Of a stretch of 64,000 bases of DNA, positions 48,466 through 57,360 are shown in pieces. Source of the stretch: Micromonospora sp. WMMA1363 (GTDB lineage: Bacteria > Actinomycetota > Actinomycetes > Mycobacteriales > Micromonosporaceae). How positions within the stretch are numbered: the first letter of the stretch is position 1; each line of letters opens with the position of its first letter. Where the stretch lies: NCBI RefSeq assembly GCF_030345795.1, contig NZ_JAUALB010000001.1, positions 62,001-126,000 of the forward strand, in the 5' to 3' direction. The translations under genes were made by a program, and so were the position numbers. The notes under the pieces were generated by a model. The model was not told the origin of the DNA, did not search any database, and saw only the letters and a program-made list of their open reading frames with translations.

Positions 48466-49812
48466 ATGAATCCCACACCCCAGTTCGAGCACGAGTCCTT
48501 CGCCCGGCGGCACCGGGGCGGAATGCTGCTGGAACGGCACGGCATCGACCTCTATCCGCACCCGTTCCTCGGGTTCACGCTCGCCCCGGGTCTGCGGTCC
48601 GACCTACTGAACACCGACGACGCGGGGTTCCGGCTCTCCGACTCCCCGTACGGCACCGTGGACTCGGCGAGCTGGCTGGCCGCCGGTGGCGGGGGGATCC
48701 TGCTCGGCAACTCGGTGGCGCTCGCGCTCGCCGCGTCGTCGGACCGGACGACCGTGGCGTCGTACCTGGCCGGGCTGACCGGGGTGCGGCAGCTCAACCT
48801 GGGCCTCTGCGCAGCCGTCTCGCTTCAGGAACTGGTGGCCGCGGTGCCGTTCCTGGAGCTGGCGTCCACCGTGGTCATCGTCGGTGGCGGGCCGGACTTC
48901 GTGAACCTGGTGGGTTCGCTGACCCCCGGCACCCAGTACGGCACGGTGTCCTACGAGCGCACGTTCGACGACCTCACCCGGGTCCCACTCTTCGATGTGG
49001 CCGCGCTCGCCGCCGGCAAGACGGTGCCCGACCTGGACGCGGTCCGCCGGCGCCACGTCACCACGCCGGACTGGGACCTTGCGCAGGTGCACAACCGGAT
49101 GGAGGTGGCGGCGGCGCGTCGGCTCCGGGACCTGCGGGTGCTCGCCCGGGCCGTTCCCACCGACGCCCGGGTGCTGTTCTGTCTCCAGCCGCTGGCCTCC
49201 ACCCGGACCCGCGACATCACTGCGGCGGAGCGGGCGCGCTACGACTTCGACGCACCGGTCTTCGGCATCCTGCACAGCGCCGTCGAGGAGAACTGGAAGG
49301 CGTACGCGGATGTGCTCGCCGCCGGCTGCGCCGAGCTGGGCGTGTCGTTCCTGAACCTGGCGGCGGACCGGTTCGTCGGGGATTCGTTCGCTGACACCGT
49401 GCACCTCACCGACGCGGGCAACCGGCAGGCGGCGGAGCTGATCCAGGCGGCGCTGGGCGGCGTGGAGGGCTCTGCTGCCGTGCCCCCGTTGCGGGCCGCC
49501 GACGCGACCCCGGCGGTCGCCTCCGCACCTGCCGCCGACGCCACGCCCGCCGGGACGGGCGAGGACCGTACGGCGCAGCTGGCGGCTGTCGTGACCGAGA
49601 TCCTCGAACTCCCTCCCGGGCAGCTCACGTCCGACGGTGACTTCATCAACGACTACGGAGCCGACTCCATGCTGGTCATCGACATCCTGGCCCGGATCGA
49701 GGTGGACATGGGGGTCCGCATACCCGACACCGACATCCCGAAGATGACGAGTCTGGCGGCGGTGGTGGCGCTGGTCGAGGAGAACGCCGGTGAGCCGGAA
49801 GCGGTCGGCTGA
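48466..49812 (+). CDS. SGNH-hydrolase-like protein with C-terminal acyl carrier domain
   Basis: A 448-residue fusion. The N-terminal 330 residues resemble an SGNH esterase: NTDDAGFRL, nucleophile-like S83 in LLGNSVALAL, and D310/H313 in ADTVHLTDAGNR. Block III reads VGGGPDF rather than GxND, so catalysis is uncertain. An Ala/Pro/Asp linker (about 335-362) leads to an ACP domain (about 365-440) with the phosphopantetheine serine S401 in DYGADSMLVIDILARIE. It is the only ACP I can find in the window. GGGAGTG precedes the ATG. It may carry and then release or transfer acyl chains for the adjacent ketosynthases. Confidence 0.82.
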   Translation: MNPTPQFEHESFARRHRGGMLLERHGIDLYPHPFLGFTLAPGLRSDLLNTDDAGFRLSDSPYGTVDSASWLAAGGGGILLGNSVALALAASSDRTTVASYLAGLTGVRQLNLGLCAAVSLQELVAAVPFLELASTVVIVGGGPDFVNLVGSLTPGTQYGTVSYERTFDDLTRVPLFDVAALAAGKTVPDLDAVRRRHVTTPDWDLAQVHNRMEVAAARRLRDLRVLARAVPTDARVLFCLQPLASTRTRDITAAERARYDFDAPVFGILHSAVEENWKAYADVLAAGCAELGVSFLNLAADRFVGDSFADTVHLTDAGNRQAAELIQAALGGVEGSAAVPPLRAADATPAVASAPAADATPAGTGEDRTAQLAAVVTEILELPPGQLTSDGDFINDYGADSMLVIDILARIEVDMGVRIPDTDIPKMTSLAAVVALVEENAGEPEAVG

Positions 49813-50446
49813 ACGGGTGGCGCCCGCGACCGGTTTCGCGCCGTTTCCGGTTCGCCGGCCGGCGGGTCCACAGTGTCAGCGGGTCGACCCGCCGCCGCGG
49901 GAGCCGGTCCGGGCCGTCCTCGCTGGGGAGTGGTCCGCAGCCCGGACCGAGGCGCTGCGCGTGTTGCTCACCGTCGTCGACGACCCGGGGACGCCGGTCG
50001 ACTGGCTGCTCCTCGCGGTCGGCGTGGGCCCGCCCCCCAGGACGCTGCCTTGGCCGGCGCAGCCGCGTCGTCCCCGGGTGGGCGTGGTGGACCCCGGGTG
50101 TCGATGGCCGGCGGGTGCGGACAGCGACGTCTACCTCGCCGGTGACGTCGAACCGGGGGAGCTGGTCGCCGCGCTGCGGCTGGCCGGGACGGGGTTCAGC
50201 ATCCGCCGGGTTGCGACGTCGGCCGGGCTTCCGGCCGGGTTGACGGGCCGGGAGGTGGAGCTGCTGCGGGCGCTCTGCGCCGGCCTGGGCAACGACCAGA
50301 TCGCCCGCCGGCTGCACATCTCCCGCAGCACGGTGGAGTTCCACCTCACCCGCATCTTCCGCAAGCTCGAGGTGTCCAGCCGCGCCGAGGCCATCGTCCG
50401 GGCCCTGCGCTACGACCCCGGCCTGGCCGCTGCTGCCCTCCGCTAG
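49790..50446 (+). CDS. LuxR-type transcriptional regulator
   Basis: A 218-residue protein. The C-terminal DNA-binding domain reads GLTGREVELLRALCAGLGND and QIARRLHISRSTVEFHLTRI, then FRKLEVSSRAEAIVRAL. The N-terminal part keeps short receiver-like segments (VDWLLLAVGV, VYLAGDVEPGELVAAL) but no clear phosphoacceptor Asp site, so it looks like an orphan regulator. GTG at 49790 overlaps the end of the SGNH-ACP gene, so the two are coupled. It is a likely cluster-situated regulator of the polyketide genes. Its last codons and stop are the first unit of a tandem repeat. Confidence 0.88.
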   Translation: MSRKRSAERVAPATGFAPFPVRRPAGPQCQRVDPPPREPVRAVLAGEWSAARTEALRVLLTVVDDPGTPVDWLLLAVGVGPPPRTLPWPAQPRRPRVGVVDPGCRWPAGADSDVYLAGDVEPGELVAALRLAGTGFSIRRVATSAGLPAGLTGREVELLRALCAGLGNDQIARRLHISRSTVEFHLTRIFRKLEVSSRAEAIVRALRYDPGLAAAALR

Positions 50447-50510
50447 GCCGCTGGTGCCCTTCCGGTGGGCTGCTGGTGCCCTTCGCTGGGCTGCTGCTGT
50501 CCTCCGTTGG
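50426..50510. repeat. Four imperfect 21-base tandem repeats spanning the luxR-type stop codon
   Basis: Units at 50426-50446, 50447-50468, 50469-50489 and 50490-50510 follow the pattern GCYGCTGSTGCCCTYCGCTGG. The first encodes the regulator's last residues and TAG stop. Confidence 0.85.
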
Positions 50511-55612: not shown

Positions 55613-56829
55613 CCCGGGCAGCCGTGGTGACCGGGATCGGGGTCGCCGCCCCCAACGGGCTGGGCACCGAGGCGTACTGGGCGGCGACGCTCGCCGGCCG
55701 CAGCGGCATCGACCGGATCAGCCGTTTCGACCCGGCCGGCTACCCGGTGCGGCTGGCCGGCGAGGTCCGCGGCTTCGACGCCGCCGCGCACGTGCCGAGC
55801 CGGCTCATCCCGCAGACCGACAACTGGACCCACCTCGGGCTGACCGCCGCCGCGTGGGCCCTCGCCGACGCCGGCGCCGACCCAGCGGCCTTCCCCGAGT
55901 ACGAGATGGCCGTCGTCACCGCCAGTTCCTCCGGGGGTACGGAGTTCGGGCAGCGGGAGATCGAGCGGCTCTGGACCAGGGGGCCGTCGTGGGTCGGGGC
56001 GTACCAGTCGATCGCCTGGTTCTACGCGGCCACCACCGGCCAGATCTCCATCCGGCACGGAATGCGCGGGCCGTGCGGTGTGGTCTGCACCGAGCAGGCC
56101 GGGGCGCTGGACGCCGCCGGGCAGGCCCGGGCGCTCGTCTGGCAGGGGACCCGGCTGGTGGTCACCGGCGGCACCGACGCCTCGCTGTGCCCGTACGGGC
56201 TGACCGCGCAGCTCAGCAAGGGCACGTTCAGCGGGGGCGATGACCCGCGGCGGGCATACCTGCCGTTCGACGCCGACGCCGGGGGGCACGTGCCGGGCGA
56301 GGGCGGAGCCATGCTCATCGTCGAGGACGCCACCGACGCGCGGCAACGCCGGGCACCGCAGGTGTACGGCGTGATCGCCGGCCAGGCGGCCACCTTCGAC
56401 CCCAGGCCGGGCTCCGGCCGGGAGCCCGGCCTCCGCCGGGCGATCGAACTGGCCCTGGCCGACGCGGGCGTCGCCGCGGGCGAGGTGGACGTGGTGTTCG
56501 CCGACGCGGCGGGGGTGCCCGACGCCGACCGGGCGGAGGCGGCGGCGATCACCGCGGTGTTCGGCCCGGCCGGGGTGCCGGTGACCGCGCCCAAGACGAT
56601 GACCGGCCGGCTCTACGCCGGCGGCGCCGCGCTGGACCTGGCGTGCGCCCTGCTCGCCCTCCGGGACCAGGTGATCCCACCGACCGTGGGGGTGGGCCGG
56701 CTGGCTCCGGGGTGCGACCTGGACCTGGTACGGGACGTGCCCCGCGAGGCGCGACTGCGGGCGGCGCTGGTCGTCGCCCGCGGGTACGGCGGCTTCAACG
56801 CGGCCGCGGTCGTCGCCGTGGCGGGTTGA
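55609..56829 (+). CDS. Type II PKS chain-length factor (KS beta)
   Basis: A 406-residue KS-beta. At the active-site position it has Q163 in [15 protein letters not shown] in place of Cys, the hallmark Gln of chain-length factors. The N-terminus [20 protein letters not shown] and C-terminal [14 protein letters not shown] fit the family. It sets polyketide length. GTG at 55609 overlaps the KS-alpha stop (GTGA). The usual next gene, a free acyl carrier protein, is missing: only 60 bases separate this gene from the aromatase. Confidence 0.95.
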
Positions 56830-56889
56830 TCGAAACGGCCGGCCGGGTGGCGTGACCCGGGCCGGTGTCGAGTGAGGAGAGACAGCACC

Positions 56890-57360
56890 ATGGCAGGACA
56901 CACGGACAACACGATCGTCATCGACGCGCCGATGGACGTGGTGTGGGACATGACCAACGACGTGGCGTCGTGGCCGCAGCTGTTCAGCGAGTACGCCGCC
57001 GCGGAGATCCTCGAACGGGACGGCGACAGCGTCACGTTCCGGCTCACCATGCATCCCGACGAGGGCGGCACGGTGTGGAGTTGGGTGTCGAAGCGCACCG
57101 TCGACCGACCGCGCCGCGAGGTGCGGGCCCACCGGATCGAGACCGGCCCGTTCGAATACATGCACATCCACTGGACGTACACCGAGGTCGACGGCGGGGT
57201 GCGGATGCGGTGGGTGCAGGACTTTCACATGTTGCCGCAGGCCCCCGTCGACGACGAGGCGATGACCGCGCACCTCAACCGCAACACGGTGATCCAGATG
57301 GACCGGATCAAGGGGTTGGTCGAGGCCGCGGCGCGCGGCCAGGTGGCCAGGGCGAGCTGA
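56890..57360 (+). CDS. Aromatase/cyclase, SRPBCC fold (WhiE ORFVI/TcmN-like)
   Basis: A 156-residue single-domain START/SRPBCC cyclase. It opens [20 protein letters not shown] and shows [20 protein letters not shown] and [21 protein letters not shown]. Members fold the nascent poly-beta-ketone and catalyse first-ring closure and aromatisation. ATG at 56890 has GAGGAGAG upstream. Confidence 0.92.

Follow-up and report, generated by a model that had tools for sequence, protein, structure and literature searches.

We have analysed a stretch of 64,000 nucleotides from Micromonospora sp. WMMA1363 (the window; C1:62001-126000 of its genome, G000), in which the genes of an aromatic type II polyketide synthase (PKS) lie near a second pair of ketosynthase (KS) genes and a gene for an SGNH-like protein with an acyl carrier protein (ACP) domain at its C-terminus. 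The window appears to cover part of one large aromatic cluster with two carrier systems. The first would be an ordinary aromatic minimal PKS, composed of KS-alpha, its chain-length factor (CLF) and a free ACP. The second would be an accessory module of glycosyltransferase, SGNH-like protein, ACP, KS2 and CLF2, in which the ACP has turned into the C-terminal domain of the SGNH-like protein. An earlier note, made from the sequence of the window, had proposed an aromatic PKS with no free ACP. This is rejected, as the same cluster contains a dedicated ACP gene of aromatic type, at a distance of about 42 kb from the end of the window and of 49.5 kb from the stop codon of CLF. The ACP missing from the 64-kb window is simply elsewhere in the cluster, and a tempting error is thereby corrected.

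The free ACP of the aromatic PKS

There is indeed no ACP gene between CLF and aromatase: the gap, given as 60 bases in the earlier note, is 42 bases as the open reading frames (ORFs) were called and is too small for one. The fused ACP domain is also the sole ACP of the window, being the only one of 44 genome-wide PF00550 matches that falls there. The free ACP has the oxytetracycline and actinorhodin ACPs as its best solved relatives, and with KS-alpha and CLF it completes an aromatic type II PKS. In the own genome its gene adjoins that of an anthrone oxygenase (C1:167819-168599), and the two are also side by side in G203. In the Streptosporangium-type genomes G287, G288, G289 and G820, the genes after KS-alpha (79–86% identical to that of the window) are, in order, CLF, ACP, aromatase and anthrone oxygenase, with an FAD hydroxylase farther along. 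Because these two genes are neighbours in the own genome and both come after CLF in the Streptosporangium type, ACP and anthrone oxygenase were apparently relocated jointly.

A free aromatic ACP with a GYDSL motif was present in all seven tested genomes that hold both systems (G000, G203, G225, G287, G288, G289 and G820). G750 was left out of this count, as were the 18.7-kb contig of G827 and the 19-kb contig of S. minutum (L041), the aromatic part not being on the stretch at hand; G286 (M. thermarum) was taken as equal to G225, its coordinates being identical. In G203 and G225, which carry the same cluster, the free ACP is 90–91% identical and lies about 42–46 kb from KS-alpha. The aromatic PKS accordingly has a dedicated ACP beyond the window with conserved co-occurrence, which is what the earlier note had named as grounds for giving up its idea.

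Detached ACPs occur elsewhere too. In G185, G221 and G282, whose KS-alpha is 78–79% identical, there is a relative at 45–46% identity, which lies 11–12 kb from KS-alpha in the first two; the third has a fragmented assembly, and there it is on a different contig. The ACP follows CLF directly in 12 of the 17 other Micromonospora KS-alpha loci fetched, and ACPs are present in the genomes of both L080 and L081. Of the other five loci, those of G192 and G253 (L086, L090) have the ACP about 4.8 kb away, and that of G185 (L080, L113) has CLF, ACP and aromatase together but at some 11 kb from its KS-alpha; G203 and G221 are as given above.

The description of the locus as whiE-like holds for its gene types and needs one qualification: another KS of the same class, 65% identical to the window KS-alpha, is located at C1:1106840 and is, by inference, the genus-wide spore-pigment copy. 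A KS match at E 1e-150 or better was found in at least 146 of 151 Micromonospora genomes, and among the matches listed many at 65–67% identity are taken to resemble the C1:1106840 copy. That the window KS-alpha is itself the genus-wide copy was considered and rejected, its type (96–100% identity) occurring in 3 of the 151 genomes among the matches listed.

The fused ACP and the second ketosynthase pair

The fusion of 448 residues reported in the earlier note is real. Residues 371–437 match PF00550 with 41 bits (cut-off 20.8; E 2.3e-10), and the sequence DYGADSMLVID near the C-terminus contains Ser401, the serine of its DSM triplet. NCBIfam models gave generic ACP models only for this protein, each below its own cut-off. 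The fusion is conserved: 10 of 35 SGNH homologues (query included) carry the ACP domain, the named ones from Micromonospora and Actinoplanes and the others metagenome entries, and 25, from Streptosporangium, Microtetraspora, Actinomadura, Nonomuraea and others, are without it. The SGNH gene is rare, being present in 3 of 150 genomes of the family (two of the three distant), in 1 of 394 genomes of the class (the own genome) and in 6 of 250 genomes of the family of G287. The searches made, in open-licence papers, gave no description of an SGNH/GDSL-ACP fusion with a type II PKS, and its standing as an unusual arrangement is upheld.

Comparison with the Streptosporangium type indicates which ketosynthases the fused ACP belongs to. 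There the genes run glycosyltransferase, SGNH, ACP, KS2, CLF2 on a single strand, with the ACP as a separate gene beside KS2. An ACP frame of its own follows the SGNH stop codon in all seven sequences of this type that were compared (six distinct, L043 being the G827 contig), its candidate starts ranging from a 4-base overlap to 119 bases downstream when a single start far upstream and those within the ACP domain are omitted. Because the ACP is a separate gene of this operon, we consider the fused ACP very probably the carrier of the KS2/CLF2 pair. In a tree of 35 ACPs (root weak, 35/46; aromatic group open, 95/27), ten fused ACPs, six second ACPs of the Streptosporangium type and the ACP of a highly reducing (HR) set in the own genome form one clade (95/97), separate from aromatic and fatty-acid ACPs. 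Each KS pair can thus be matched, as far as sequences tell, with an ACP type of its own. The fused ACP of P0009, a metagenome SGNH-ACP fusion on a 3.4-kb contig, clusters with free ACPs of the Streptosporangium type (98/83), which hints at a second independent fusion event.

The earlier suggestion that the fused ACP serves one or both KS pairs is therefore kept in part: service to one pair, KS2/CLF2, is plausible, but since the fused ACP goes with the HR-like pair, the fusion is not evidence for an aromatic pathway run on a carrier and releasing enzyme in one polypeptide. It is very improbable that the fused protein is also the carrier of KS-alpha/CLF, with the distant free ACP a relic or used for another step: it has in its favour that it is the sole ACP of the window and is encoded on the strand of KS-alpha about 4.5 kb upstream, but it is of a different type from the aromatic ACP, and the free ACP is of aromatic type, has the gene of the anthrone oxygenase as its neighbour in both G000 and G203, and keeps GYDSL in every genome tested with both systems.

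The nearest solved KS and CLF of the second pair are Iga11 and Iga12, and the cognate ACP is of fatty-acid type, both as in HR type II PKSs. KS2 matches the actinorhodin KS far more weakly (E 5.6e-49) than 6kxd_A (Table 1), and for CLF2 the PDB match after 6kxd_B drops to 2e-12. Profile searches were made in five genomes (G000, G203, G287, G289 and G820). PF07977 (FabA-type) gave a single match, at G000 C1:720258 beside the other HR-type set, and none in the cluster; PF01575 (MaoC-type) gave matches, none of them in the cluster, other dehydratase families not being searched; ketosynthase III (KSIII; PF08545) had no match in the cluster. Several short-chain dehydrogenases/reductases (SDRs) are encoded in the cluster. 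Since no dedicated dehydratase was found, we do not count the KS2 module among complete HR type II PKSs.

The separate HR-type set of the own genome (L033, at about 721 kb) comprises ACP, KS, CLF, further KS-like genes and a FabA-type dehydratase. Its ACP is 45% identical to the fused ACP, and its KS and CLF are 66% and 44% identical to the Streptosporangium-type pair.

Possible roles of the SGNH-like protein

We propose that malonyl units would be loaded on the holo-ACP and that KS2/CLF2 would build a short acyl chain there, presumably with few reductive cycles, since the cluster gave no match to dehydratases of FabA or MaoC type. The tethered SGNH domain would then take the acyl group from the ACP and either release it or attach it to the aromatic product, on its sugar or its aglycone. 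The assignment of the fused ACP to KS2/CLF2 together with an accessory acyl role is probable. The in-cis transfer or release step by the SGNH domain is more tentative, and we lean slightly against it. Rather unlikely is the fullest form of the proposal, that SGNH-ACP is a self-contained carrier and acyltransferase whose in-cis acyl transfer to glycoside or aglycone joins two type II PKSs. If the accessory role is correct, aromatic clusters in two actinomycete lineages add an acyl group by way of a second type II KS/CLF. That SGNH and ACP are separate genes in one lineage and one polypeptide in the other would then be a natural clue that they act on each other.

The N-terminal part of the fusion belongs to the SGNH fold. 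Its match to the SGNH/GDSL profile PF13472 is weak (18.2 bits, below the cut-off of 32.9), and its best structural relative is the crocagin hydrolase CgnD (8a2n), whose match, with a chain of 348 residues, is confined to the SGNH part; in such a fold search the absence of a family from the results is no evidence. An alignment was made of 27 of the 35 homologues, eight being left out by choice. Ser83, Asp310 and His313 are invariant in all 27, so that the catalytic Ser-Asp-His set is intact. Block III is altered, as the earlier note had seen, reading GGPD instead of GxND in the fusion. Its Asn is replaced in 23 of the 27 (Pro in 17, Thr in 6) and kept in 4, and we therefore call the protein SGNH-like and not a canonical SGNH/GDSL member.

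Several observations weigh against a catalytic SGNH protein in a conserved acyl module. Loss of the block III Asn in most sequences could mean weak or no SGNH catalysis. Between the Micromonospora and Streptosporangium types, identity is 70–74% for SGNH and 45–46% and 34–35% for KS2 and CLF2, and the best 120 of 1324 matches of KS2 include relatives closer to it than those of the Streptosporangium type. Because the pair has diverged much more than SGNH and KS2 has closer relatives elsewhere, KS2/CLF2 may have been replaced or swapped, and the module need not share its chemistry. G037 has an SGNH homologue (45%, the match spanning two stop codons), and the stretches fetched showed no KS2, CLF2 or ACP. 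In G064 a homologue (35%) accompanies an aromatic KS and ACP, again without KS2; SGNH can therefore occur without the module. At the G064 locus (L097, C1:3138708-3140250) an ACP comes immediately after an aromatic KS-alpha (69% identical), the SGNH-like gene (32–35%) is divergent beside it, and the fetched sequence had no match to CLF.

Second ACPs are used for starter synthesis in some aromatic pathways, those of R1128 type. KS2/CLF2 and the fused ACP could by that precedent make the aromatic starter unit, which SGNH would hand on, or it would edit wrong starters. The module does lie within the same cluster in both lineages, but its conserved neighbour is a glycosyltransferase, and the five genomes searched had no KSIII, FabA-type or MaoC-type match in the cluster; we regard this role as unlikely. 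Less likely still, SGNH would be a non-catalytic docking or structural domain, with the fusion merely setting the stoichiometry of carrier and partner. Replacement of the block III Asn by Pro or Thr and the Pfam score under its cut-off would fit such a domain; the invariance of the three catalytic residues and the likeness to CgnD, a (slow) hydrolase, argue for an enzyme.

The cluster and its known counterparts

The region C1:106771-172504 contains 42 ORFs as called with a simple GC3-based caller, and 30 of them match at 40% identity or more in each of G203, G287, G288 and G289, as does the cupin, which the caller missed and which was added afterwards. Common to the clusters of these two lineages are cyclases, cupin, FAD hydroxylases, halogenase-like protein, P450, SDRs, two ABM proteins, anthrone oxygenase, SchA/CurD protein, asparagine synthetase, nitroreductase, acetyl-CoA carboxylase (ACC) and biotin carboxylase subunits, luciferase-like proteins and a BTAD regulator. 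The parts of PMC9469721 at hand give minimal PKS, cyclases, monooxygenases and asparagine synthetase as the make-up of polycyclic xanthone clusters. The shared genes correspond to this make-up, and the cluster thus resembles one for a polycyclic xanthone (pentangular) to which an accessory acyl module has been joined. The features are collected in Table 1. The start of KS2 was inferred from a database entry of 439 amino acids (P0036), the longest ORF extending to 53513. For KS-alpha a longer span, 54191-55612, is also given. In the three regions of Streptosporangium type that were compared, nothing matched the LuxR-type regulator.

Table 1. Features of the two carrier systems and adjoining genes, in window numbering unless marked C1
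Feature	Position	Strand	Remarks
EryCIII-like glycosyltransferase	46949-48358	+	directly upstream of SGNH gene in both lineages
SGNH-like/ACP fusion	48466-49812	+	448 residues; SGNH-like part about 19-332, Ala/Pro-rich linker, ACP 371-437, Ser401
ACP domain of fusion	49576-49776 (C1:111576-111776)	+	sole PF00550 match in window
LuxR-type regulator	49790-50446	+	between fusion and CLF2
CLF2	50941-52005	-	Arg at catalytic Cys position; best PDB match 6kxd_B, E 2.9e-36
KS2	52002-53321	-	Cys and two His; best PDB match 6kxd_A, E 2.7e-118
Polyketide cyclase (PF04673)	53555-53890	+	
Cupin (PF07883)	53865-54338	+	
Aromatic KS-alpha	54335-55612	+	best PDB match 1tqy_A (actinorhodin KS), E 4.5e-181
Aromatic CLF (KS-beta)	55609-56829	+	
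Aromatase/cyclase (PF03364)	56872-57360	+	
FAD-dependent aromatic hydroxylase	57388-59010	+	
Flavin-dependent halogenase-like protein	61604-63001	+	
Free aromatic ACP	C1:168342-168599 (106342-106599)	-	same cluster

Just past the window end and inside the cluster (C1:132979-148000; L031, L108) are an ORF of 2448 residues, another with RHS repeats, and transposases of the Mutator and ISL3 types, none of which had a match in the G203 region. A beta-helix protein gene is single in the window (59675-61423) and a tandem duplicate in G820 (C1:2163324-2166359; L151).

Like the xantholipin, lysolipin and albofungin clusters, the present one combines an aromatic minimal PKS with cyclases, monooxygenases and asparagine synthetase. 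In the albofungin cluster the ACP gene likewise appears apart from KS/CLF, abf32 against abf23/24 in the numbering given in the same parts of PMC9469721. For the three clusters, the passages at hand do not mention a second KS/CLF pair or an SGNH(-ACP) protein. The substrate of CgnD is a peptide and not an acyl-ACP. In cispentacin biosynthesis, AmcF-AmcG/AmcB is described, in the sections of PMC10698177 available, as a KS with a motif-less partner that performs one C2 extension on a dedicated ACP; such pairs therefore need not make polyenes. KS2 scores 206.9 against the AmcF cut-off of 325, and no cyclopentane chemistry is implied. The closest solved relatives of KS2 and CLF2 are those of the ishigamide HR type II PKS (Iga10 ACP, Iga11-Iga12 KS-CLF; 6kxd-6kxf), of which 6KXF is presented, in the portion of PMC7949117 at hand, as the ACP docked to its own KS-CLF. 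The module differs from the ishigamide system in that its cluster has no dehydratase of FabA or MaoC type, its ACP is fused to SGNH and its setting is an aromatic cluster, and resembles it in its fatty-acid-type ACP and in the ACP-KS-CLF gene order of the Streptosporangium-type genomes.

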